Notes under the pieces: model-generated
Databases searched by the model: none
What the model saw: the letters and a program-made list of their open reading frames with translations, nothing else
Told to the model about the DNA's origin: nothing
Program-made: the position numbers and the translations under genes
In this document: positions 9,687 through 45,636 of the stretch, one piece after another
Layout of the letters: each line of letters opens with the position of its first letter
How positions within the stretch are numbered: the stretch's first letter is position 1
Source: Sporichthyaceae bacterium
Lineage (GTDB): Bacteria > Actinomycetota > Actinomycetes > Sporichthyales > Sporichthyaceae
Length of the DNA: 45,678 nucleotides
Direction: 5' to 3'
NCBI GenBank assembly: GCA_036493475.1
Contig: DASXPS010000070.1
Coordinates: forward strand, 1-45,678

Positions 9687-11383
9687 AGCTCGGCAATCGA
9701 GTCGTGGCCCTGAGTTCGGCAGCAGCGTTGAGCCTTGCCGGGCTCGGGCTCGCCACGCTCGGCCCGGGCGGCGTGGCCGGTGCCGCCACCGCACCCGCCC
9801 CCAAGATCTCCTGGAGCACCTGCAGCCAGTCCTCGCTGTCCGCCACCGGTGCCGAGTGCGGGTTCCTGTCCGTGCCGCTGGACTGGGACAAGCCGACCGG
9901 GCAGAAGATCGAGCTCGCGGTGTCCCGGATGAAGGCCACGGTGCCCGCGACCGCGCGCCAGGGCGTCATGCTGGTCAACCCGGGCGGCCCCGGCGGGTCC
10001 GGGCTGGGCCTGTCCACACTGCGCGACGTGATCAAGAACGACGCCGGGAAGAGCTACGACTGGATCGGCTTCGACCCGCGCGGGGTGGGTGCCAGCAAGC
10101 CCGCGATCTCCTGCGATCCGACGATCACCAAGGGCCCGCGGCCGGACTACGTCCCGGACACGCACACCGCGAAGCTGTCCAAGACGGAAACCGTCTGGCT
10201 GGAGCGCTCGAAGAAGTACGCGGCCACCTGCGGCAAGAAGTACCCGGACCTGCTTGCGCACATGAAGACCACCGACACCGTGCGCGACATGGACTACCTC
10301 CGCCAGGCGCTGGGTGAGAAGCAGATCAACTACTACGGCTTCTCTTACGGCACCTACCTCGGTGAGGTCTACGCAACGATGTTCCCCACGCACGTCGACC
10401 ACATGGTGCTCGACGGCAACGTGGACCCGCGCGGTGTCTGGTACACCTCGCAACTCGCCCAGGACCGCGCCTTCCAGGGCGTGGCCGACCACTTCTTCGG
10501 CTGGGTGGCCAAGCACCACGACACCTACAACGTGGGTACCACCACCGCGGCGGTGCAGGCCAACTACAACAAGGTGCTCAAGGCGTTGGAGGCCAAGCCC
10601 AAGGGCACCATCGGCGCCGATGAGTGGACCGACGCCTTCGTGCACGGCATGTACGCGGAGTTCCTGTGGCCGGACACCGCCGACGCGCTGGCCTCCTACA
10701 TCAACGACAAGGGTGACATCGGCGCCGCGCGGGTGGCCTACAACAACTCCCTCGATGCCGACGACAACGGCTTCGCCGTGTACAACGCGGTGAACTGCAC
10801 GGACGCCGCGTGGCCCGGCTCGTACGAGAAGACCTGGCGGCCGGATGCGTTCTCCACCGCGGCCAAGGCGCCGTTCATGACGTGGAGCAACGTCTGGTAC
10901 AACACCTCCTGCCTGTACTGGCCGGCCAAGCCGGGCATCCCGGTCACCGTGGACGGCACGGTCCTGGCCAAGGAGAAGTCCTCCCCCGGCGTGTTGCTGG
11001 TCAACGCCACGTTGGACGGGGCCACCCCGTACACCGACGCGCTGCATGTGCGCGCGCTGTTCCCCAGCGCCCGGCTGATCGCCGAGCAGGGCGCCACCAG
11101 CCACGCAAATTCCCTCGGTGGCAACCCGTGCATCGAGGACCGCATCGCGGACTACCTGGCCAACGGCGCGCTGCCCGCGCGCAAGGCCGGCGACGGTCCG
11201 GACGTGAAGTGCAACCGGATCCCGATGCCGCAGCCGGGCTTCACCAAGTACGGGGCCAGCGCGAACCCCGATCCGCTGGGCAATACGCCTCCGGACCCGA
11301 ACCGCAAGGACAAGCCGGCGCCGCCGGCCACCGATCGCAACGTGGTGGACTCAATCGTCGGCCTGCTGCCCTCGCGTCGGTAA
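9683..11383 (+). CDS. Secreted S33-family alpha/beta hydrolase, tripeptidyl-aminopeptidase type (copy 3)
   Basis: 566 aa. The GTG start has GGAGG at 9670-9674. The signal peptide is followed by an Ala/Pro linker. Core motifs: NPGGPGGSG, DWIGFDPRGVG, elbow GFSYGTYLG (Ser about residue 221), Asp in NATLDGATPY and His in ATSHANSL. The C-terminus has a Pro/Asn/Asp-rich extension of about 50 residues absent from copy 1, perhaps a wall-spanning or disordered tail. It closely resembles copies 1 and 2, so the trio arose by tandem duplication. Cys pairs near the C-terminus (for example NPCIED) are kept in all three and may form a disulfide. Confidence 0.9.
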   Translation: MKLGNRVVALSSAAALSLAGLGLATLGPGGVAGAATAPAPKISWSTCSQSSLSATGAECGFLSVPLDWDKPTGQKIELAVSRMKATVPATARQGVMLVNPGGPGGSGLGLSTLRDVIKNDAGKSYDWIGFDPRGVGASKPAISCDPTITKGPRPDYVPDTHTAKLSKTETVWLERSKKYAATCGKKYPDLLAHMKTTDTVRDMDYLRQALGEKQINYYGFSYGTYLGEVYATMFPTHVDHMVLDGNVDPRGVWYTSQLAQDRAFQGVADHFFGWVAKHHDTYNVGTTTAAVQANYNKVLKALEAKPKGTIGADEWTDAFVHGMYAEFLWPDTADALASYINDKGDIGAARVAYNNSLDADDNGFAVYNAVNCTDAAWPGSYEKTWRPDAFSTAAKAPFMTWSNVWYNTSCLYWPAKPGIPVTVDGTVLAKEKSSPGVLLVNATLDGATPYTDALHVRALFPSARLIAEQGATSHANSLGGNPCIEDRIADYLANGALPARKAGDGPDVKCNRIPMPQPGFTKYGASANPDPLGNTPPDPNRKDKPAPPATDRNVVDSIVGLLPSRR

Positions 11384-34704: not shown

Positions 34705-34783
34705 CCGGGTCCTTTCCACGGGATCTGCTGCGGATCAATCTCCCGGGAACCGCGCCGAAAGCCCGCGTTGGGGCCGCGGGCAG

Positions 34784-34816
34784 CAAATCTTCGACACATC
34801 ACGGCGCGACTACGGT
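34784..34816 (+). promoter_or_regulatory. 11-bp direct-repeat promoter (site 1 of 8), before the 52-aa gene
   Basis: CAAATC-ttcga-CACATC at 34784-34800, then a -10 TACGGT at 34811-34816, 16 nt after the start of the second half-site. It fits the shared consensus YAMAYS-N5-CAMAYS. The predicted leader is about 45 nt. Confidence 0.65.
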
Positions 34817-34867: not shown

Positions 34868-35026
34868 ATGGCGCGCATGAACTTCTTCCCCGGCCACGCG
34901 CAGGACGACTGGTGGTGGCGCCGGCGGCATCACCGGCACCATTGGCACCGCCATCACTGGTTCGGGCGTGGCGATGGGGACGACGACCGGGATGGTGGTT
35001 GGCGCGGCGGGGGCGGCGACTGGTAG
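34868..35026 (+). CDS. 52-aa His/Trp/Arg-rich small protein
   Basis: The gene is real by context: AAGGGAG at 34854-34860 is eight nt before ATG 34868, a regulon-type promoter lies upstream and a perfect hairpin follows. Residues 1-14 are ordinary (MARMNFFPGHAQDD); residues 15-31 hold WWW, RRR and seven His in 17 positions; residues 35-52 are Gly/Asp-rich and end in Trp. In all there are 8 His, 7 Trp and 9 Arg. There is no signal peptide and no Cys. The composition suggests binding of metal ions or of an anionic partner (nucleic acid, phosphate, lipid headgroups). The tail of the secreted peptide at 38325 (HWWRHHHRD) has the same flavour. I recognise no family. Confidence 0.72.
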   Translation: MARMNFFPGHAQDDWWWRRRHHRHHWHRHHWFGRGDGDDDRDGGWRGGGGDW

Positions 35027-35448: not shown

Positions 35449-36717
35449 TCACCCGATCGTCTGGATCAGGTTCTGCAGAGCCGTCTCCTCCGAGTTCAGG
35501 TCCGGGTTCTTGCTGCGCAGCTGATGCAGCACCACGTCGATGCGACCGTCCAGCAGCGTCCAGCCGGCCTTGTCCAGCGGCTTGAGCGTCTTCTCCTGCC
35601 GATCCCACGCGGTCTCCAGGTCGGTGACCCGCTTGGTGGCCGTCGCCTGGTTGCCCGCCTGCAGCAGCGCCAGGTCGTCGGTCGCGATCTGCTGAAACGG
35701 CTCCAATTGCGCCGGGCTGAACCTGGTCGCCGGCCCCGCGTCGGTGGTGTCCGTAGCGATTGGCACCACCGGTGCGGCAGCCGCGGAGGAGCCACCCTCC
35801 TCATCGTCGAGCGGGTTGGCGTGCGGCTGCTGCGATGTGTGGTGCAACAGCGCCGCGGTGAGCAGCGCGACCACGCCATACCCGGCGAGCACCATCCGCT
35901 GCCGAGGCAGCGGGGCGATCGCGACCGGGTGGTCAACCACCACGGCGCCGGCCGGGGTGACGTCGGCCTTACTGAGCGTCAGATAGGACACGGTGGCGCC
36001 GATCAGGCTCAGGAAGATGACACTGGTACCGGCCGTGCCCAGACCGAGGCCCTTCTCCGCGTGCGGCCCCGCGAACCAGTCGCCGAGGTTGGCGCCCAGC
36101 GGACGGGTCAGGATGTAGGCCAGCCAGAACGAGAGCACGGGGTTAGCCCCGCCGCGCCACCCGAGGGTGACCGCGGCGATCAGGCCGGCGGGCAGCAGCA
36201 CCGATATGCCCGGGCCCCAACCGGTGAGTTCCAGCGTCCAGTCGCCAACCGCGGTGCCCAGCGCGAAGGTGACCAGGATGGCCAGCCAATAGAAGCCCTC
36301 GCGGGCCGGGGTGACGATGGAGTGAATGGACAACGTGCGTTCCCGCGCGTACCAGATGCCGAAGACCACGGCGAGCACGATGGCGAAGACCGTGCTGCTG
36401 TCCCGCAACGGCACGCCCTTGTTGTCGGTGAGGATGTCGGTGTAGAGCGTGCCGGTCACACTGATCACCACAACGGTGAACCAGTACACGAACGGCACGT
36501 ACCGGTCGAGCTTGAACTGCATGCCCAGCACTACCGCAAGCACGGCGGTGAACAGCAGTGCGGTGGCGTCGAGACCGACGCCCAGCGTCATGTTGATCCA
36601 GTCCGCAAAGGACTCCCCCACCGTGGTGCACAGGATCTTGATGATCCAGAACCAGACGGTGACCTCGGGAACCTTGTTGAGCCAGAAAGTGCGCTGCGGT
36701 GAGCGCGTCGTCGTCAT
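35449..36717 (-). CDS. COG4705-like polytopic membrane protein with C-terminal soluble domain (paralogue 1)
   Basis: 422 aa. Start ATG 36717: an AAGG lies 8 nt upstream, the protein then begins MTTT like its paralogue at 41136, and the predicted -10 (36730-36725) ends 7 nt before it, so the transcript may be leaderless. About 8-10 hydrophobic helices fill residues 10-300. Repeated motifs typical of this uncharacterised family are KVPEVTVWFWIIKIL, TTVGESFADW, ALGTAVGDW and TRPLGANLGDW, with acidic residues inside helices. After the last helix comes an acidic linker (DDEEGG) and a soluble helical domain of about 110 residues that the second paralogue lacks. Function unknown; transport or sensing of a cation is speculation. 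Confidence 0.82.
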   Translation of the reverse strand: MTTTRSPQRTFWLNKVPEVTVWFWIIKILCTTVGESFADWINMTLGVGLDATALLFTAVLAVVLGMQFKLDRYVPFVYWFTVVVISVTGTLYTDILTDNKGVPLRDSSTVFAIVLAVVFGIWYARERTLSIHSIVTPAREGFYWLAILVTFALGTAVGDWTLELTGWGPGISVLLPAGLIAAVTLGWRGGANPVLSFWLAYILTRPLGANLGDWFAGPHAEKGLGLGTAGTSVIFLSLIGATVSYLTLSKADVTPAGAVVVDHPVAIAPLPRQRMVLAGYGVVALLTAALLHHTSQQPHANPLDDEEGGSSAAAAPVVPIATDTTDAGPATRFSPAQLEPFQQIATDDLALLQAGNQATATKRVTDLETAWDRQEKTLKPLDKAGWTLLDGRIDVVLHQLRSKNPDLNSEETALQNLIQTIG

Positions 36718-36724
36718 GATCATG

Positions 36725-36757
36725 ACCTTGCCCGGGACCGCGTGTGAGGACCGTGTG
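36725..36757 (-). promoter_or_regulatory. 11-bp direct-repeat promoter (site 2 of 8), before COG4705-like paralogue 1
   Basis: On the minus strand: CACACG-gtcct-CACACG (36757-36741), a perfect repeat of the half-site, then CAAGGT (36730-36725) 16 nt after the start of the second half-site. Confidence 0.65.
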
Positions 36758-36813
36758 CTCAATACCGCGCAAACCCTGCCCAAAACGACAACTGACGCAG
36801 CGTTAGCCCGATG

Positions 36814-38149: not shown

Positions 38150-38206
38150 GGCGTACTAGTGACGTGGGCACAAGAGCCGTTGGGTGTTTGTCACATTAAC
38201 GCCGGG

Positions 38207-38239
38207 CAAATGCTCCTCACACGAGCGCCCTGCCACCTT
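38207..38239 (+). promoter_or_regulatory. 11-bp direct-repeat promoter (site 3 of 8), before small secreted peptide 1
   Basis: CAAATG-ctcct-CACACG at 38207-38223, then CACCTT at 38234-38239 (offset 16). This -10 is the weakest of the set. Confidence 0.55.
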
Positions 38240-38324: not shown

Positions 38325-38546
38325 ATGAAGCGCTTCCTCGCGGTCAGCTGTTTCGGATTGGCCCTGGTTGGGGTCAGCGGATCCGCCGTCGCCGCTACCG
38401 ACGGCGCACCCGAACCCTCCGGCAACGTGCGCCTGACGCAATGCAACGGCGACTACAACTACGACCCCTCCAACGATCCGGTGCACTGCCACTACGCGCA
38501 TCCGCTGCCCGATCGGCACTGGTGGCGTCACCACCATCGCGACTGA
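38325..38546 (+). CDS. Small secreted Cys/His peptide, family member 1
   Basis: 73 aa: signal peptide MKRFLAVSCFGLALVGVSGSAVAA, then a mature part of about 50 residues. The mature part shares with the peptides at 40530 and 40923 the pattern Q-C-N-[GA]-D-x3-D-x-S-N-D-P-[VI]-H-C-x3-H, with C-x14-C spacing. The tail reads PLPDRHWWRHHHRD. ATG 38325 is the only standard start; GGGAGG at 38304-38309 is 15 nt away, and a GTC codon (38316) sits exactly where the third member has its GTG start. Two Cys predict a disulfide after export, and clustered His and Asp suggest metal binding. Function unknown. Confidence 0.8.
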   Translation: MKRFLAVSCFGLALVGVSGSAVAATDGAPEPSGNVRLTQCNGDYNYDPSNDPVHCHYAHPLPDRHWWRHHHRD

Positions 38547-38554
38547 ACGTCGCC

Positions 38555-38573
38555 GTCACGACCACCTCGTGAC
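38555..38573. terminator. Short hairpin after small peptide 1 (weak)
   Basis: 7-bp perfect arms 38555-38561 and 38567-38573, 5-nt loop, 8 nt after the stop. No T-tract. Confidence 0.35.
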
Positions 38574-38658
38574 CACACGGCCGCACCGATCCCGATCCGG
38601 CGCACTCCATCCAGCCACCGGCGGCGCCTGACTCCCTCCGGGTGAACAAACGTCGACG

Positions 38659-38690
38659 CACATGGTGCTCACATGCCACCCCCTTACTGT
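38659..38690 (+). promoter_or_regulatory. 11-bp direct-repeat promoter (site 4 of 8), before the phosphoesterase-like lipoprotein
   Basis: CACATG-gtgct-CACATG at 38659-38675, both half-sites identical, then -10 TACTGT at 38685-38690 (offset 15). Confidence 0.7.
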
Positions 38691-38737
38691 GGTGAGAGGG
38701 TGCGGCCCGACGGCCGTTGAAGGGGGACCAACCGGGC

Positions 38738-39703
38738 ATGCGCAGCAATACGCGTCAGCGCACGATGATCTGTGTGGCCGTGACCGCGCTCACCGCCGCC
38801 CTGGCCGGCTGCGGGACGGAAGCCGGCGCGCCGGCCGCCCACGCGCCCGGGCCGGCCTCGCAGGGATCCGCCGTCGTCCGGGCCGATGCGCAGCGCAAGG
38901 TCTTGGTGGTCTTCGAGGAGAACGAGACCATTGACCAGATACTCGGTTCCGGCCAGGCACCGTTCCTGACTCAGATGAGCAAGAAGTACGGCGTGGCAAC
39001 CCAACTCGACGCCGGTTATCCGACGCAGTGCCCGTCGCTGGCCGCCTATCTGATCCTGACCAGCGGGGACCAACACGGCGTCTGCGACGACGGACCACCC
39101 GCCAAGCACCAACTGACCGGGGACACCATCTTTCAGCGGGTGACCGACGCCGGGCAGCAGTGGCGGGTGTACGCGGAGTCGATGACGACCAACTGCCAGG
39201 CGAGCAACGGCGGCAGTTACGCCGTGCGGCACACCGCTGCGCCGTACTACCCGGCAATCTCCGCCGACTGCGCGCGCTGGCAAATTCCGATGGGCACGCT
39301 GCAGAACGGCGCGCTGCACAACGACCTGACCGCCGGGACGTTACCCGCCTTCTCCATGGCCATCCCCGACGTATGCCACGACATGCATGGCGGCACGGGG
39401 TGCGGCAAGGACCTGGTGCGGGCCGGCGATGACTGGATGCGGGATTTCACCGCCGCCGTGCAGAAAGCCCCGGACTGGCGCAGCGGCCGGTTGACGGTGA
39501 TCGTCACCTGGGACGAGGGCTCGGCGACCAGCAACCACATCCCGCTGCTGGTGATGTCACCGACGACCACGAAGAGAAGCGTTGCCACCCCCGCGACCCA
39601 GTGCGCGGTGTCCCGAATGATCACCGACCTACTGGCCGTGAACCCGGTCGGTTGCGCGGCCGGGGCGCCCGCGCTCGAGGCGGCATTCGGTTTGTTGCAC
39701 TGA
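38738..39703 (+). CDS. Phosphoesterase-like lipoprotein (acid phosphatase / phospholipase C group)
   Basis: 321 aa. The start is ATG 38738, with GGGGGA upstream. The N-terminus is a lipoprotein signal with lipobox ALAGC (Cys about residue 26). The mature domain resembles secreted phosphoesterases of the PF04185/alkaline-phosphatase superfamily: VVFEENETIDQIL at the start, where the Glu-Asn-based motif binds metal and provides the nucleophile region, then AGYPTQCPSLAAYL, FSMAIPDVCHDMH, and VTWDEGS followed by NHIPLLVMSP, which hold the late Asp and His metal ligands. Several Cys suggest disulfides. Probable role: hydrolysis of phosphomonoesters or phospholipids at the outer membrane face. Substrate not determinable. 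Confidence 0.8.
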   Translation: MRSNTRQRTMICVAVTALTAALAGCGTEAGAPAAHAPGPASQGSAVVRADAQRKVLVVFEENETIDQILGSGQAPFLTQMSKKYGVATQLDAGYPTQCPSLAAYLILTSGDQHGVCDDGPPAKHQLTGDTIFQRVTDAGQQWRVYAESMTTNCQASNGGSYAVRHTAAPYYPAISADCARWQIPMGTLQNGALHNDLTAGTLPAFSMAIPDVCHDMHGGTGCGKDLVRAGDDWMRDFTAAVQKAPDWRSGRLTVIVTWDEGSATSNHIPLLVMSPTTTKRSVATPATQCAVSRMITDLLAVNPVGCAAGAPALEAAFGLLH

Positions 39704-39709
39704 CGTCGT

Positions 39710-39742
39710 TACATCCTCCTCACATCGGGCGCCGGGTACTGT
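39710..39742 (+). promoter_or_regulatory. 11-bp direct-repeat promoter (site 5 of 8), before the PAP2 phosphatase
   Basis: TACATC-ctcct-CACATC at 39710-39726, then -10 TACTGT at 39737-39742 (offset 16). The -10 is identical to that of site 4. It begins 7 nt after the previous stop codon. Confidence 0.7.
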
Positions 39743-39791
39743 TGGCAGGTTCGGCGACGAATGTCGTGGCCGGGGCTTCGGGGGGAGTCCA

Positions 39792-40448
39792 ATGCTGCAA
39801 CTGACCGATGTCCGTGCGACCCGACCGATGGTCGGCTCGGTGCTGGGCGCGGGTGGGGTAATTCTTGCGCTGTGGACGGTCTTTGTCCGGCACTCGCCGG
39901 ATGATCTGGACCGGGACATCTACGACGATCTGCGCGGCCGGGCCGGGTCCGGTACCGCTCGGTTCGCCGAGCGCCTGACCGGCATCGGCGATGGGGCGCC
40001 GCTGGTCGCCGTCCTCTGTGCGCTCGGGATTCTCGCCTTCCTGGCGCTGCGCTCCTGGCGGCCGTTGCTGACCAGCGGCGGCGCGGTGGCCCTCGGTGCG
40101 GTGATCTCCACGGTGGTGAAGCTGCTGGCCGACCGCGCCCGGCCGCCGGCATCGGGCTGGTTGATCGCCGACGCGAGTGGCAACTCCTTCCCGTCCGGGC
40201 ACACCACGGTCACCACCGCCGGCTACCTCGGACTCGCGGTCGGCGTGGCCGCGCTGCTGCGCAGTCAGTGGGCGCGCACCCTCATCGTGGCCACCGGTGC
40301 GGCCTTCGCCGTCGCCATCGGCTGGACCAGGGTCGAGCTCGGCGTGCACTGGCCGACCGACGTGGTGGCAGGCTGGACCGTGGGCATCATTGGGGTCCTG
40401 GTGGCCAACGCGGTCGTGCCGGCGCTGCCGCGAGCAGGCCACCGCTAA
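39792..40448 (+). CDS. PAP2-family membrane phosphatase
   Basis: 218 aa, about five transmembrane helices. The three phosphatase signature motifs are intact and in order: KLLADRARPP (K-x6-RP), PSGHT, and WTRVELGVHWPTD (R-x5-H-x3-D). A GGGGAG lies before ATG 39792. The active site faces the outer leaflet, so the likely substrates are phosphatidic acid, undecaprenyl pyrophosphate or phosphatidylglycerol phosphate; the sequence does not decide. Its TAA (40446-40448) is the first three bases of the next regulon site. Confidence 0.9.
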   Translation: MLQLTDVRATRPMVGSVLGAGGVILALWTVFVRHSPDDLDRDIYDDLRGRAGSGTARFAERLTGIGDGAPLVAVLCALGILAFLALRSWRPLLTSGGAVALGAVISTVVKLLADRARPPASGWLIADASGNSFPSGHTTVTTAGYLGLAVGVAALLRSQWARTLIVATGAAFAVAIGWTRVELGVHWPTDVVAGWTVGIIGVLVANAVVPALPRAGHR

Positions 40449-40478
40449 ATGATCTTCAAATGATCTTCGGCGGATAGT
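40446..40478 (+). promoter_or_regulatory. 11-bp direct-repeat promoter (site 6 of 8), before small secreted peptide 2
   Basis: TAAATG-atctt-CAAATG at 40446-40462, the five spacer bases atctt recurring after the second half-site; -10 GATAGT at 40473-40478 (offset 16). The site overlaps the PAP2 stop codon. Confidence 0.7.
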
Positions 40479-40529
40479 CCCCCCGGGGGATCACCGGGAC
40501 CCACGTCCCCTCGCGCCGTGGAGGACTCC

Positions 40530-40736
40530 ATGCATCCGCTGAACCGCTCTGCCGTCGCCGCCTGCCTCGGGTTGGCCTTCCTGGTGCTGCCGGCCACGGC
40601 TTCACACCCGGCCGTTCCCGTCACGCAATGCAACGCCGACCCCGGCATCGACGCCTCGAACGACCCGGTCCACTGCACCTATCAGCACCCGGTGCCCGAT
40701 CGAAAGTGGCGTTCGGCTCATCATCACCGCTGGTGA
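40530..40736 (+). CDS. Small secreted Cys/His peptide, family member 2
   Basis: 68 aa. ATG 40530 has GGAGG (40520-40524) five nt upstream; GTG 40518 is poorer. The signal peptide spans about residues 1-24 (AACLGLAFLVLPATA). The mature part keeps the family pattern with C-x14-C and ends PVPDRKWRSAHHHRW. Differences from member 1: Ala for Gly in CNAD, PGI before the second Asp, and no His directly after the second Cys. It shares the PDR-[HK]-W tail with member 1 but not with member 3. Exported, probably disulfide-bonded; function unknown. Confidence 0.8.
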   Translation: MHPLNRSAVAACLGLAFLVLPATASHPAVPVTQCNADPGIDASNDPVHCTYQHPVPDRKWRSAHHHRW

Positions 40737-40781
40737 CATTTCGCCGTTGGAATTTGTGTATTTCTCACGTCACCGAGCATT

Positions 40782-40809
40782 TGTGTGAAGAGAAAGTGTG
40801 AGCCATTTA
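40782..40809 (-). promoter_or_regulatory. Reverse-oriented array of three half-site-like 6-mers
   Basis: On the minus strand TAAATG-gctca-CACTTT-ctctt-CACACA, again at 11-bp period. No -10 follows on that strand, so it may be an auxiliary operator for the forward site 40848-40864 lying 39 bp away. The surrounding 40737-40850 is AT-rich for this genome. Confidence 0.4.
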
Positions 40810-40847
40810 CGAAAAAGGCGAAGACTTGTCGTATGGTTAGCGTCCGG

Positions 40848-40880
40848 TAAATGGTCTTCACACGCTCGCTTCTCCATATT
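40848..40880 (+). promoter_or_regulatory. 11-bp direct-repeat promoter (site 7 of 8), before small peptide 3 and COG4705-like paralogue 2
   Basis: TAAATG-gtctt-CACACG at 40848-40864, then -10 CATATT at 40875-40880 (offset 16). It drives the two-gene unit 40923-42083. Confidence 0.7.
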
Positions 40881-40922
40881 GGGAACCTGACCATCATCTC
40901 TCGACAGGGTGGGAGCAGGTTC

Positions 40923-41123
40923 GTGTATTCAATGAAGCGCTCTGTAATTGCGGTCGGCGTCGGTTTGGCTTTCGTCGTGGTCGGTGCCGGCGTCGGCAAC
41001 GCAGCAGTTGTCAGCCCGGCACCGAGCGCGGTGGTGAGCCAGTGCAACGGTGATCCTGGCTTCGATCCGTCCAACGATCCGATCCACTGCCACTCCCAGC
41101 ACCACCATCACTGGCATTTCTAG
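40923..41123 (+). CDS. Small secreted Cys/His peptide, family member 3
   Basis: 66 aa from GTG 40923, which has GGAG (40912-40915) seven nt upstream; ATG 40932, three codons later, would give 63 aa. Signal peptide VIAVGVGLAFVVVGAGVGNAA, then a short Pro/Ala linker and the family core: QCNGD...DPSNDPIHC with C-x14-C, then C-x3-H and a tail HHHHWHF. It lacks the PDR-x-W element of the other two. It is followed 12 nt later by a COG4705-like gene in the same unit, which suggests the peptide and the membrane protein act together. Confidence 0.8.
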   Translation: MYSMKRSVIAVGVGLAFVVVGAGVGNAAVVSPAPSAVVSQCNGDPGFDPSNDPIHCHSQHHHHWHF

Positions 41124-41135
41124 GGAGTGCGGCAA

Positions 41136-42083
41136 ATGACGACGACCGAGGCGGGCAATCGCACCACGACGCCGACTCATTATGTAATGCGGAAGCTGCC
41201 GCACGTGGCGCTGCTGTTCTGGGTTCTGAAGACGGTGGCCGTCACGCTCGGTGAAACGGCCGGCGATTTGTTCGGCATCACCTTCAAGTTGGGCTACGTG
41301 GCGACCGCGGCGGCCTTCGCCGTGTTCTTCGCCATCGTGGTCACACTGCAGGTGCGCGCCCGACGATTCCACGCCGCGTTGTTCTGGTCGGTAATTCTGG
41401 GCACCAGCCTGGTCGGCACTGAGATCTCCGATTTCCTGGACCGTGGGCCCGGCTCCGGCAGCGAGGCGAACGGCGTCGGCTACGGCTGGGGCATGCTGAT
41501 TCTGACCGCGGGTCTGGGCTTGGTCTTTGTGATCTGGCGGACGACCGGGCAGACCTACGACGTGGAGAACATCGCCACGCGCAAGGGCGAAATCCTTTAC
41601 TGGACCGCGATTCTGCTGTCGAACACGTTGGGCACCGCCAGCGGGGACTGGCTATCCGACGACACCGGTCTGGGCTTCCGCAATGCCTTCCTGGTGATCG
41701 CGGCGATCATGGCGGGAATCCTCGCGCTGCACTACCTGACCCGCATCAACGGCGTGGTGTTGTTCTGGATCGCGTTCGTGCTCACCCGCCCCCTCGGTGC
41801 CGCGGGTGGGGACTCGCTGACCAAGCCCACGTCCGAGGGCGGTCTCGGGTGGGGAACGGCCGGCGGCTCGGCCGCGCTGCTCGGCCTGCTGGTGCTGCTC
41901 GTCCTGATTCAAGCGGCGCACGTGCGGCGCAGCCCGCTCGGCTTCGTTCCGTTCCCGCGGCATCGGACCACCGGCGAACTGCAGACGCCGAACGGTGGGG
42001 TCGTGTTGGCGCACGGGCGTCGCTTCGAACATTTGGTCCCCGGCGTCCCGCACCAGCACGAGGAACTGCGGCGAGCGGGCTGA
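41136..42083 (+). CDS. COG4705-like polytopic membrane protein (paralogue 2)
   Basis: 315 aa. ATG 41136 has AGGGAG (41122-41127) eight nt upstream; GTG 41127 is three codons earlier. About eight helices carry the family motifs also seen in the protein at 35449: KLPHVALLFWVLKTV, TLGETAGDLF, NTLGTASGDW and TRPLGAAGGD. The C-terminal 60 residues are soluble and His-containing (FPRHRTTGEL, HGRRFEHLVPGVPHQH), unrelated to the C-terminal domain of paralogue 1. Co-transcribed with small peptide 3. Function unknown. Confidence 0.83.
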   Translation: MTTTEAGNRTTTPTHYVMRKLPHVALLFWVLKTVAVTLGETAGDLFGITFKLGYVATAAAFAVFFAIVVTLQVRARRFHAALFWSVILGTSLVGTEISDFLDRGPGSGSEANGVGYGWGMLILTAGLGLVFVIWRTTGQTYDVENIATRKGEILYWTAILLSNTLGTASGDWLSDDTGLGFRNAFLVIAAIMAGILALHYLTRINGVVLFWIAFVLTRPLGAAGGDSLTKPTSEGGLGWGTAGGSAALLGLLVLLVLIQAAHVRRSPLGFVPFPRHRTTGELQTPNGGVVLAHGRRFEHLVPGVPHQHEELRRAG

Positions 42084-42139: not shown

Positions 42140-42213
42140 GCCCCCGCCCATGGGGTCAGTGCGGTGACGCACTTCCAGAGTGCGGGGCCCAGGATGTGAG
42201 GACGGTGTGCCCG

Positions 42214-43602
42214 TCACCCGTTCGGCCGGGCCATCGGCAGCGTGACAGTGACCACGGCGCCCGGACCGGGCATCCGGTTGCTCGCCGCGACTGTGCCGCC
42301 GTGCGCGCGCACCACCACCGCGACGATGGCCAAGCCCAACCCCGTGCTGGTGCTCGAGGTGCGCGCGGTCTGCGCGCGACGGAACCGGTCGAAGGCGTGC
42401 GGCAAGAACTCGGGCGGGAAGCCCGGCCCGGTGTCGGAAATCTCCAGGCACACGCTGCCCGCTGCGGCCGGGCGCAATGCCACACTCACCGCCCCACCCG
42501 GCGGGGTGTGGTCCAGGGCGTTGGACAGCAAGTTGTCCACCACCCGGCGCAGGGCCGGTGACTCGCCCTGCACCGGACACCCCGTGGGCAGCACCGCGCG
42601 CAGGTGCACGCCCTGCCGATCCGCGATGCCTTGCCGGCCGGTAACCGCGGCGGCCACCACCTCGCGCAGGTCGACCCGGTCGGACAGGTCGGGCACCAGC
42701 CGTTCCTCGGTGGCCAGCAGCAGCAGGTCCTCGGCGAGGTTGCGCAACCGTTCCACCTCGCTGCGGGTGGTGGCGATCGCCTCGCGCAGTTCCTCCGGGG
42801 TGCGGTGCGGGCGGTCGGCCAGTTCCAGCTCGGCGACCACGATGGCCAACGGGGTGCGCAGTTCGTGGCCGGCGTCGGCGACGAACTCGCGTTGCTGGGC
42901 AAGGGAGTGGTGTAAGCGGTCGAGTAGGTCGTTGAACGTAACGGCCAGGGCGTGCAGTTCGTCGCCGGTGGCCGGCTCGGTGAGGCGTGCCTCGACATCG
43001 CTCGCGCCCAGCGCCGCCGCCTCGGCGCGCATCCGCTCCACCGGGCGCAGAGCGGAAGCGGCAAGGAACCAGGTACCGCCGGCGATCAGCACCAATAGCG
43101 CGGGCAGCGCGACCGCCAGTACCGCCTCGATGCGGTCGCTGGCCTCATCGGTGGTCTCCCGGCCGACCCCGACCACCACGTGCCACACGCCGTCCTTGCG
43201 CGCCACTGTGTCCACCCGCAGTCGCAGTTCCTGACCGTTGACGTCGCGGTCGAGCAGCGCCGGGGTCTCGACGTCGACAATCGGCAGCACCGCCCGCACC
43301 CCGGCGGCCGCGGCTGATGGATCGCTGTACCGCACGCCACCGTCCGGGCCCAGCACCACGGCCAGCCCATCGGTGACCCGCCCGGTGCCCGGCTCGGCCG
43401 CCGCAGCCGGAAGGTCCGGCGACTCGGGTTCGTTGAGCGCCTGCAGGAATGGGGTGGCGCGAGCGGCCAATGTGGTGTCCAAGGTGGAATGCAGGTTGTT
43501 GTTGAGCGCCTGCACCGCGACCACGGCCCACACCCCGAACAGCCCGGTGGCGGCGAGCGTGTAGGTCACCACCAGCCGGGCGCGCAGGCCGCGCAGTTTC
43601 AC
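42214..43602 (-). CDS. Two-component sensor histidine kinase
   Basis: 462 aa. GTG 43602 overlaps the response-regulator stop (GTGA). TM1 lies near residues 11-30, an extracytoplasmic sensor of about 120 residues follows, then TM2 (about 153-180), HAMP, and the kinase core: H-box AGHELRTPLAI, N-box DNLLSNALDHTPPGG, G1 DTGPGFPPEF, F-box FDRFRRA and G2 GLGLAIV. The sensor has no Cys and is rich in Asp and Val. It should phosphorylate the regulator encoded just upstream. The signal is unknown; the regulon composition points to an envelope, metal or phosphate cue. Confidence 0.95.
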   Translation of the reverse strand: MKLRGLRARLVVTYTLAATGLFGVWAVVAVQALNNNLHSTLDTTLAARATPFLQALNEPESPDLPAAAAEPGTGRVTDGLAVVLGPDGGVRYSDPSAAAAGVRAVLPIVDVETPALLDRDVNGQELRLRVDTVARKDGVWHVVVGVGRETTDEASDRIEAVLAVALPALLVLIAGGTWFLAASALRPVERMRAEAAALGASDVEARLTEPATGDELHALAVTFNDLLDRLHHSLAQQREFVADAGHELRTPLAIVVAELELADRPHRTPEELREAIATTRSEVERLRNLAEDLLLLATEERLVPDLSDRVDLREVVAAAVTGRQGIADRQGVHLRAVLPTGCPVQGESPALRRVVDNLLSNALDHTPPGGAVSVALRPAAAGSVCLEISDTGPGFPPEFLPHAFDRFRRAQTARTSSTSTGLGLAIVAVVVRAHGGTVAASNRMPGPGAVVTVTLPMARPNG

Positions 43603-44282
43603 CCGGCGGCCCCGCTCGCGTCCAATCGGTAGCCGCTGCCGCGCAGTGTTTTCAGGTCGGACCGACCGAACGGCTTGTCGATCTTGCGGCGCAGGTAGCC
43701 CACGTATTGGTCGACGATGTTGCTGGCCGGGTCGAAGGCCATGTCCCAGACGTGCTCGAGGATCTGCGTGCGGGACAACACCTCACCCGGTCGGCGCATG
43801 AACAGCTCCAGCACCGCGAACTCCTTCGCGGTGAGCTTGAGGTCCTGACCCGCCCGGCCGGCCTTCTTGGTCACCGGGTCCAGCTGCAGGTCGCCGCAGG
43901 TCAATACAGTCGGGCGGGCGGGCGCGCCGCGGCGCAACAGCGCCTGCACCCGCGCCACCAGCTCGGCGAAGGCGAACGGCTTGAGCAGATAGTCATCGGC
44001 ACCCGCGTTCAACCCGGCCACCCGATCGGCCACCGTGCCGCGGGCAGTGAGCATCAGCACCGGCGACCAACGTCCGGCCTCGCGCAGACGACGACACACC
44101 TCAAATCCGTCCACACCGGGCAACATGCAGTCCAGCAGGACCACGTCGTAGTCGTACTCCGTGGCCATCCAGAGCCCGTCGCCACCATCGTGCGCAATAT
44201 CGACCGCGAAGCCCTCTTCCTCCAGCCCGCGACGGATGACCCCGGCCATCCGGATCGAGTCCTCGACGACGAGCACGCGCAC
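43599..44282 (-). CDS. OmpR/PhoB-family response regulator
   Basis: 227 aa if started at GTG 44282, giving VRVLVVEDS, the usual opening of the family; ATG 44300 adds six residues (MDHAQR) but lacks a ribosome-binding site and would lie upstream of the predicted -10. Receiver domain: acidic pair in VVEDS, phospho-acceptor Asp51 in LLDCMLPG, Thr in LMLTARG and Lys in YLLKPFAF. The winged-helix output domain has LTAKEFAVLELFMRRPGEV, ILEHVWD and VGYLRRKID. It is the best candidate to bind the 11-bp repeats in this region, one of which precedes its own gene. Confidence 0.94.
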   Translation of the reverse strand: MRVLVVEDSIRMAGVIRRGLEEEGFAVDIAHDGGDGLWMATEYDYDVVLLDCMLPGVDGFEVCRRLREAGRWSPVLMLTARGTVADRVAGLNAGADDYLLKPFAFAELVARVQALLRRGAPARPTVLTCGDLQLDPVTKKAGRAGQDLKLTAKEFAVLELFMRRPGEVLSRTQILEHVWDMAFDPASNIVDQYVGYLRRKIDKPFGRSDLKTLRGSGYRLDASGAAG

Positions 44283-44288
44283 CCGCTG

Positions 44289-44321
44289 AGCATGGTCCAT
44301 CCAACATGTGAGCCAGATGTG
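44289..44321 (-). promoter_or_regulatory. 11-bp direct-repeat promoter (site 8 of 8), before the two-component genes
   Basis: On the minus strand CACATC-tggct-CACATG (44321-44305), then CATGCT (44294-44289), 16 nt after the start of the second half-site. GTG 44282 lies 7 nt past this -10, so the message may be leaderless. Suggests autoregulation. Confidence 0.65.
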
Positions 44322-44429
44322 AGGGCACGCGTTGTGACCGGCCGGTTCAGTCTGACGGGTAATCAGATAGACGGGTTCCCGACTGCTCCCCATTGGGTAG
44401 CGATTGGGGCCCTGACCTGCACCGAAAGG

Positions 44430-44526: not shown

Positions 44527-45636
44527 GTGTTGTTGCTGCGCGTTCGCGTGCGTCGGCTGGTCACCAGCGGCGCCCTGGTCGCCGGGCTGACCGTCTCGGG
44601 TCTGGCGTTGGCCACGGGTGAGGCGGCGGCTGTCTCGAAGAGCAAGATCCAGGTGGTGGCCCACCGCGGTGACAGCAATGACGCCCCGGAGGCCACGTTG
44701 GCCGCATTCGGCGACGCCATCCGCGACGGCGCAGACGCCATCGAGTTCGACATCAAGTTCACCTCCGACGGCGTGCCGGTCGCCATGCACGACCACACGG
44801 TGGACCGCACCACGGACGGCAAACAGTGCGACGGACTGGTCAGCAGCCTGACCTGGGCCGTGCTGCACATGTGCGATGCGGGCAGCTGGTTCGGCCACGC
44901 GTTCTCCGACGAACACGTACCGAGTGTGGACGAGGCGGTCACCTACATCGCCAAGCACTCCAAAACCACCAAAATCTATTTGCACATCAACTTTTCCGGG
45001 CTGACCGAGTCGCAGGCCAAGCGGCTGGTGAAGGTGGTCAAGGACGACCACCTGAACACCTCGCGGACCACCTACGTCGGCGAGAACGAGACCGAGATGA
45101 AGTACCTGAAGAAGGCCGGCGGCCACCGGCTCGGTCGTATGGTGCACACCGCCGCGGACTGGAAGCTGACCAAGTATCCGGTGCTGGTGCCCTACAGCGC
45201 GTACACCTCGGTGGTCAATGCGCACTACATCAAGAAGGCGGTCAAGCGCGGCCAATTGGTGCTGCCGGTGCAGGGGCATCCGCTGACGCTGGCTCAGATC
45301 GTGAACGACGGGGCGAACGGGGTCTACCTCAACAACCTGGAATCGGGACTGGAGTACTTGGGACGGCCCAAGCCCGCACCGGCTCCCAAACCCGCGCCGC
45401 CGGCCCCCAAACCGGCACCGGCACCGAGCACGCCCGCACCGCCGACCACGCTGCCGGCCGACCTGCCCGTCACCCCGCCGGCCGACCCACCCGTCACCCC
45501 GGCGGCCGACCCACCCGTCACGCCACCGGCCGACCCGCCCGTCGACCCGCCCGTCGACCCGCCGGCCGACCCCCCCGTCGACCCGCCGGCCGATCCACCT
45601 GCGACCACGCCGACCGACGGCGGAACGTCGCCCTGA
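44527..45636 (+). CDS. Secreted glycerophosphodiester phosphodiesterase-family protein with Pro/Asp-rich tail
   Basis: 369 aa; the start is uncertain between GTG 44527, TTG 44530/44533 and GTG 44548. Basic N-terminus and hydrophobic core form a signal peptide to about residue 35. The catalytic GDPD fold begins VVAHRGDSNDAPEATLAAF, with metal ligands in AIEFDIKFTSDG and the second His in MHDHTVDRTTDG. The domain ends near residue 277 and is about 240 aa, normal for the family. The remaining 90 residues are Pro-rich: first KPAPAPKPAPP, then PADPPV units, probably crossing the cell wall. It hydrolyses glycerophosphodiesters to glycerol-3-phosphate and an alcohol. It has no regulon-type repeat of its own on the plus strand. 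Confidence 0.88.
   Translation: MLLLRVRVRRLVTSGALVAGLTVSGLALATGEAAAVSKSKIQVVAHRGDSNDAPEATLAAFGDAIRDGADAIEFDIKFTSDGVPVAMHDHTVDRTTDGKQCDGLVSSLTWAVLHMCDAGSWFGHAFSDEHVPSVDEAVTYIAKHSKTTKIYLHINFSGLTESQAKRLVKVVKDDHLNTSRTTYVGENETEMKYLKKAGGHRLGRMVHTAADWKLTKYPVLVPYSAYTSVVNAHYIKKAVKRGQLVLPVQGHPLTLAQIVNDGANGVYLNNLESGLEYLGRPKPAPAPKPAPPAPKPAPAPSTPAPPTTLPADLPVTPPADPPVTPAADPPVTPPADPPVDPPVDPPADPPVDPPADPPATTPTDGGTSP
45451..45606 (+). repeat. In-frame repeats encoding PADPPV and PVDPP units
   Basis: Tandem degenerate units of about 15-30 nt coding for Pro-Ala-Asp-Pro-Pro-Val/Asp, in the tail of the GDPD gene. A low-complexity wall-spanner, not a CRISPR array. Confidence 0.75.

Follow-up and report, generated by a model that had tools for sequence, protein, structure and literature searches.

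A new family of small, putatively exported Cys/Asp/His peptides in the predicted regulon of a heavy-metal-like two-component system of a Sporichthyaceae bacterium

The stretch of DNA analyzed here (45,678 nucleotides of a Sporichthyaceae bacterium, assembly GCA_036493475.1, contig DASXPS010000070.1, hereafter the window) contains three small genes, pep1, pep2 and pep3, whose predicted products each carry a putative signal peptide and a pair of cysteines. We found that the three are real coding genes of a family with a selectively constrained core, and that they very probably belong, by predicted binding sites, to the regulon of the two-component system (TCS) encoded next to them, together with two DUF347 membrane proteins, a PAP2 phosphatase and an exported phosphoesterase. 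A possible role of the peptides as an exported metal sponge is weighed below against other explanations.

The three peptide open reading frames (ORFs) described in an earlier note, which was made from the letters of the window alone, are present (pep3 starting at GTG 40923 or ATG 40932 and ending at 41123), and they have in common the core Q-C-N-[GA]-D-x3-D-x-S-N-D-P-[VI]-H-C-x3-H, with exactly 14 residues from Cys to Cys. The family is larger than the note had it: when the whole genome (4.27 Mb in 217 contigs) was scanned with a pattern, a fourth paralogue, pep4, turned up on another contig (G000 C135, L005:8400-8645), whose core, QCNADPGFDPSLDPVQC, is followed by HYTH and has Leu for Asn and Gln for His at two positions that the note had called invariant. 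The positions kept in all four paralogues are Q-C-N-x-D-x3-D-x-S-x-D-P-x-x-C-x3-H. With pep3 as the query, phmmer retrieved pep4 (E = 2.0e-17) as well as pep1/pep2 (E = 1.4e-9 and 1.3e-6). Within the core, the nonsynonymous proportion (pN, 0.16-0.24) was lower than the synonymous proportion (pS, 0.39-0.74) in all six paralogue pairs, with 22 codons each and therefore small numbers, and the base composition of the pep genes by codon position is of the coding type. The peptides are thus coding and, as had been proposed, their core is under purifying selection, as seen among paralogues. The accompanying claim that everything outside the core has diverged was too strong, since pep1 and pep2 have an [LV]PDR[HK]W tail in common and the signal regions of the peptides are alike. 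As judged by inspection, the N-termini are hydrophobic and are followed by Ala-x-Ala-like sites.

The peptides constitute a new and apparently lineage-restricted orphan family. No family matching them was found in Pfam, NCBIfam or the PDB, in keeping with the note's failure to recognize one, and neither a profile scan of GTDB species contigs nor one of plasmids returned a relative. A profile of the mature part, run against 396 genomes of the phylum (G067 among them), matched this genome only, and the small conserved peptides encoded beside DUF347 genes at 32 other loci include none of the family. The note had held that the family would be called into question if related genomes did not conserve the core; on this point the outcome is divided, as the core is kept in four paralogues and no convincing homologue was found in other genomes. 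A profile search of 394 genomes of the class gave one match in a congener (G001, L115:9985-10206), which was rejected: when the mature part alone was used, 172 of 2000 shuffles did just as well, and the earlier good score had been obtained with the sequence itself in the profile. A second congener peptide (L114) was not accepted, and the further class matches that were inspected (L025-L028, L032-L036) look coincidental, falling in unrelated proteins or out-of-frame stretches. At the congener locus L115 (G001 C63), small exported proteins that have at least two Cys each but no obvious kinship to one another in sequence are encoded in a cluster (2705-2974, 9694-9963, 9985-10206 and 10330-10797).

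The link to the TCS comes from a 22-bp box consisting of two half-sites in direct repeat with an 11-bp period, roughly [TG]CA[CA]A[TC][GC]-N4-TCACA[TC][GC]. Scored with an independent matrix, built from 16 boxes of other genomes only and from no window sites, nine sites ranked first in the window (15.0-25.3 bits; next site 10.4 bits): those before pep1, pep2, pep3, the phosphoesterase, PAP2, DUF347_B, the response regulator and a His-rich ORF at 34868, and one at 42189 in the spacer between the convergent DUF347_A and kinase genes. When the 150-bp upstream regions were shuffled with dinucleotides preserved, scores as high as those observed came up in 0-1 of 1000 shuffles for each of these genes. 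Across the genome, 8 of the 26 sites within three mismatches of the consensus lie on this one contig, which makes up 1.07% of the genome, and all five sites within two mismatches of the pep-type box belong to the regulon, one of them before pep4. DUF347_A has no box of its own by the independent matrix and follows pep3 after a gap of 3 bp, so pep3 and DUF347_A are probably one operon that uses the pep3 box. Control by the adjacent TCS, which the earlier note had put forward, is well supported by these predicted sites. The site at 42189 scores best of all by the independent matrix, and a congener box occupies the matching place after the kinase (L114:11610); it is possibly a promoter for a small or antisense RNA. 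On the minus strand, a Cys-rich frame that follows this box was discarded because its composition is not that of coding DNA.

Flanks of orthologues of the response regulator (60-77% identity) contain the same box. At five of these loci (L118, L119, L122, L123 and L126) it lies 40 bp ahead of the regulator start codon, a spacing equal to that between the start of the box and GTG 44282 in the window, which, if this GTG is the start, argues strongly that the box is the regulator's own site. It also precedes genes for UppP/BacA, DedA (VTT), PAP2 and DUF347 proteins at orthologue loci, and across L118-L130 its place before UppP/BacA, DedA and PAP2 marks a lipid-carrier recycling regulon. The box is not a general feature of DUF347 genes: of 30 such loci sampled from the class, most lack it. 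In the congener, the best boxes besides those at DUF347_B (L186:10007) and the kinase region stand before a chromate transporter (PF02417) and a plastocyanin/azurin-type exported copper protein (PF00127); three sites with at most one mismatch were seen against about 0.3 expected by chance (a hand estimate), and each single assignment of a box to a metal gene is tentative. In Antrihabitans, Skermania and Actinomycetospora (L074:5101-5400, L079:6501-6830 and L075:2299-2523), small exported Asp/Glu/Pro peptides with DTPEPGDTPD repeats, with no box upstream, are encoded near the orthologous kinase.

The best NCBIfam matches of both TCS proteins are heavy-metal models: the kinase scores 227.9 bits against cztS_silS_copS (TIGR01386; cut-off 292.55) and the regulator 255.7 bits against cztR_silR_copR (TIGR01387; cut-off 279.2), with CusR second. 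The regulator consists of a receiver and a Trans_reg_C domain, and direct repeats of 11-bp period lie at its own promoter and its targets, as in the OmpR/PhoB type. The box resembles the PhoP box of M. tuberculosis, TCACAGC-N4-TCACAGC (PMC4832192), in being a tandem direct repeat of 7-bp half-sites with an 11-bp period and a TCACA start, but the half-site here is roughly [TG]CA[CA]A[TC][GC] and the regulator fits CopR/SilR-type models above PhoB/PhoP. A phosphate-starvation (PhoB/PhoP) reading, raised by the phosphatases and the PhoP-like repeat, was rejected because those models score below CopR/SilR.

SilE and PcoE are periplasmic metal sponges of silver and copper resistance operons, and lie beside OmpR-type heavy-metal TCSs (SilRS/PcoRS). 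The reading that we favor, with a probability of roughly 0.45 for the whole chain, is that the peptides are a comparable exported Cys/His/Asp sponge within an envelope- or metal-stress regulon. When the kinase fires, the regulator would bind the tandem 11-bp repeats and switch on its own operon, the two DUF347 proteins, PAP2, the phosphoesterase, the peptides and the His-rich 52-aa protein. Cleavage of the signal peptide would leave a mature peptide of ~40 residues, in which an Asp/Asn-rich loop shut by one Cys-x14-Cys disulfide, or offering two free thiolates as ligands, is followed by a His-rich tail. The peptide would be disordered until, within the wall or on the outside of the membrane, it bound an ion of a transition or heavy metal, and it would in this way buffer the metal that the DUF347 proteins export or displace; the phosphatases would meanwhile free phosphate and recycle the lipid carrier.

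Like SilE, which is described as a disordered sponge (PMC5008109), and PcoE, the peptides are small, with clustered candidate metal-ligand residues, and are encoded beside an OmpR-type heavy-metal-like TCS, their export, disorder and metal binding being predicted. They differ in being actinobacterial, in having Cys-x14-Cys with Asp/His in place of the His/Met motifs, and in their partners, DUF347 proteins and phosphatases; neither SilCFBA nor a P-type ATPase was noticed among the genes of the cluster. No sequence similarity to SilE/PcoE was found in Pfam, NCBIfam or the PDB; of the systems compared, the peptides appear closest to SilE by analogy of role, not by descent. Lead induces three UppP-DUF347 operons in Frankia, and a role in metal transport has been proposed for DUF347 (PMC4531530). 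As here, DUF347 and a lipid-carrier phosphatase are co-regulated there, with metal export and phosphate precipitation as the proposed outcome; unlike here, the text on those operons mentions no such peptides (PMC4531530). The metal link made in the earlier note has circumstantial support from the TCS models, the His-rich ORF at 34868, the copper and chromate genes of the congener, co-regulation with DUF347 and the lead data from Frankia, while the resemblance to cation-binding loops that the note also saw, read as calcium loops, found none. Structure prediction gave no confident fold (AlphaFold, pLDDT 54.9), which is weak evidence in that it fits a disordered sponge but equally a thin alignment.

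Several observations weigh against a metal sponge. Both TCS proteins score below the curated cut-offs of the heavy-metal models, and direct metal sensing by the kinase is not evident because its extracytoplasmic part has, on inspection, few His, no Cys and no metal-ligand cluster. pep4 has lost the His that directly precedes the second Cys, and its box, which resembles the pep-type box, scores weakly with the independent matrix (67 of 1000 shuffles did as well). The chromate and copper genes of the congener start 209 and 283 bp after their boxes, which are long distances, and the cross-genus regulon of UppP, DedA, PAP2 and DUF347 would fit a response centered on the lipid carrier (undecaprenyl phosphate) or on envelope stress equally well.

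This last regulon is the starting point of the best-surviving alternative, which we nevertheless consider somewhat unlikely: the TCS would sense damage to the lipid carrier or cell wall, and the peptides would shield or bind the wall or act on neighbors as cationic His/Trp/Arg antimicrobials, with no metal role. Conservation of UppP/BacA, DedA and PAP2 in other genera speaks for it, as do the cationic, Trp/Arg/His-rich tails of pep1 and pep2; yet pep3 is hardly cationic, with a tail of almost pure His, the regulators fit heavy-metal models best, and copper and chromate genes are among the targets in the congener. Metal and envelope readings are compatible and can hold together, since it is at the undecaprenyl pyrophosphate phosphatase step that heavy metals come together with phosphate chemistry, lead resistance (PbrB) being an example. 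A bolder reading is unlikely, namely that a single heavy-metal-like TCS governs lineage-invented exported Cys/Asp/His micro-metalloproteins along with DUF347 transporters and phosphatases of the lipid carrier, and that these would join surface metal capture to phosphate precipitation and so couple metal detoxification to lipid-carrier recycling.

We regard it as quite improbable that the exported peptides signal back by binding the outer domain of the kinase and setting its activity. Several paralogues do carry the box of the very system that would read them, and the three orthologous systems named above have other small exported peptides by the kinase; but those DTPEPGDTPD peptides lack the box, orthologous kinases occur with no such peptide nearby, and no pheromone export or processing gene was noticed in the vicinity. 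The signaling role suggested in the earlier note found no support. Wall peptides that use the Asp/Asn/Ser loop either to bind Ca2+ or, jointly with the phosphatases, to nucleate metal phosphate at the wall are very improbable: the spacing of the core and the phosphoesterase, PAP2 and divergent GDPD genes of the cluster would suit them, but the Pfam scan found no EF-hand or other Ca motif, His tails are unusual at Ca sites, and PhoB/PhoP are not the top NCBIfam models of the regulator.

Least probable is that the peptides belong to a wider actinobacterial exported family of still unassigned common role, typified by a mycobacterial-type protein (L024; WCPG...NWDxxxCHDxHH) that was matched or beaten by only 2 of 2000 shuffles with the mature-only profile and whose family profile aligned to that of the peptides with P 0.001 (hhalign; none of 200 column-shuffled controls did as well), but with a probability of just 22%, for an example picked out of the 394-genome search, with a Cys spacing of 17 versus 14, and with the mature profile matching nothing else in the phylum genomes, G067 included. 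The L024 family is large and exported (28 of 60 genomes of its genus, up to eight copies; core WCPGQxWDPxWGxNWDxxxCHD). It resembles the peptides in having a signal peptide, two Cys, an Asp-Pro motif, C-H-x-x-H after the second Cys and many paralogues per genome, as the pep family has four; it is unlike them in its Trp/Gly-rich core, and the marginal profile similarity is a lead rather than a result. Loci L217-L246 hold this multi-copy family of small exported proteins, of which a scanned member had no Pfam match.

Control of small exported metal-ligand proteins by TCSs is already known; the peptide family is new. An orphan family gains a regulatory address that is open to test, and a DNA box and conserved regulon (UppP, DedA, PAP2, DUF347) are defined, as predicted sites, for an uncharacterized actinobacterial TCS. 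The regulon also provides a way into the study of DUF347, a membrane family that is widespread but of unknown function; the sole role that we found proposed for it is metal transport.

Table 1. Genes and predicted regulator boxes in the window.
Feature	Coordinates	Strand	Description
pep1	38325..38546	+	73-aa predicted exported peptide, C-x14-C core, tail PDRHWWRHHHRD
pep2	40530..40736	+	68-aa predicted exported peptide, C-x14-C core, tail PDRKWRSAHHHRW
pep3	40923..41123	+	63-66 aa predicted exported peptide, tail HHHHWHF
DUF347_A membrane protein	41127..42083	+	PF03988 x4, 159.7 bits
DUF347_B membrane protein	35449..36717	-	422 aa from ATG of MTTTRSPQ; PF03988, 170 bits
Exported phosphoesterase	38738..39703	+	PF04185, 68.2 bits
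PAP2 phosphatase	39792..40448	+	nearest models undecaprenyl-diphosphate phosphatases, below cut-off
His/Trp/Arg/Asp-rich ORF	34868..35026	+	52 aa, MARMNFFPGHAQDDWWWRRRHHRHHWHRHHWF..., no signal peptide
Sensor histidine kinase	42214..43602	-	best model cztS_silS_copS
OmpR-type response regulator	43599..44282	-	best model cztR_silR_copR
Box before pep1	38206..38227	+	GCAAATGCTCCTCACACGAGCG
Box before phosphoesterase	38658..38679	+	GCACATGGTGCTCACATGCCAC
Box before PAP2	39709..39730	+	TTACATCCTCCTCACATCGGGC
Box before pep2	40445..40466	+	CTAAATGATCTTCAAATGATCT
Box before pep3-DUF347_A	40847..40868	+	GTAAATGGTCTTCACACGCTCG
Box before DUF347_B	36737..36758	-	GCACACGGTCCTCACACGCGGT; begins 41 bp ahead of ATG
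Box before response regulator	44301..44322	-	TCACATCTGGCTCACATGTTGG; predicted autoregulation
Box before His-rich ORF	34783..34804	+	GCAAATCTTCGACACATCACGG; 15.0 bits vs next window site 10.4
Box between convergent DUF347_A and kinase genes	42189..42210	-	GCACACCGTCCTCACATCCTGG

Among the neighboring genes, both DUF347 proteins contain four repeats and score above the gathering cut-off of 28.2 for PF03988, and the phosphoesterase matches an NCBIfam acid phosphatase model weakly, far under its cut-off. The ORF at 34868 (RRRHHRHHWHRHHW; 8 His and 7 Trp), with its box 85 bp upstream, is likely a cytoplasmic His-rich member of the regulon. Divergent from the regulator, the window also encodes a GDPD phosphodiesterase (44527-45636, + strand) with a long Asp-Pro-Pro repeat tail.

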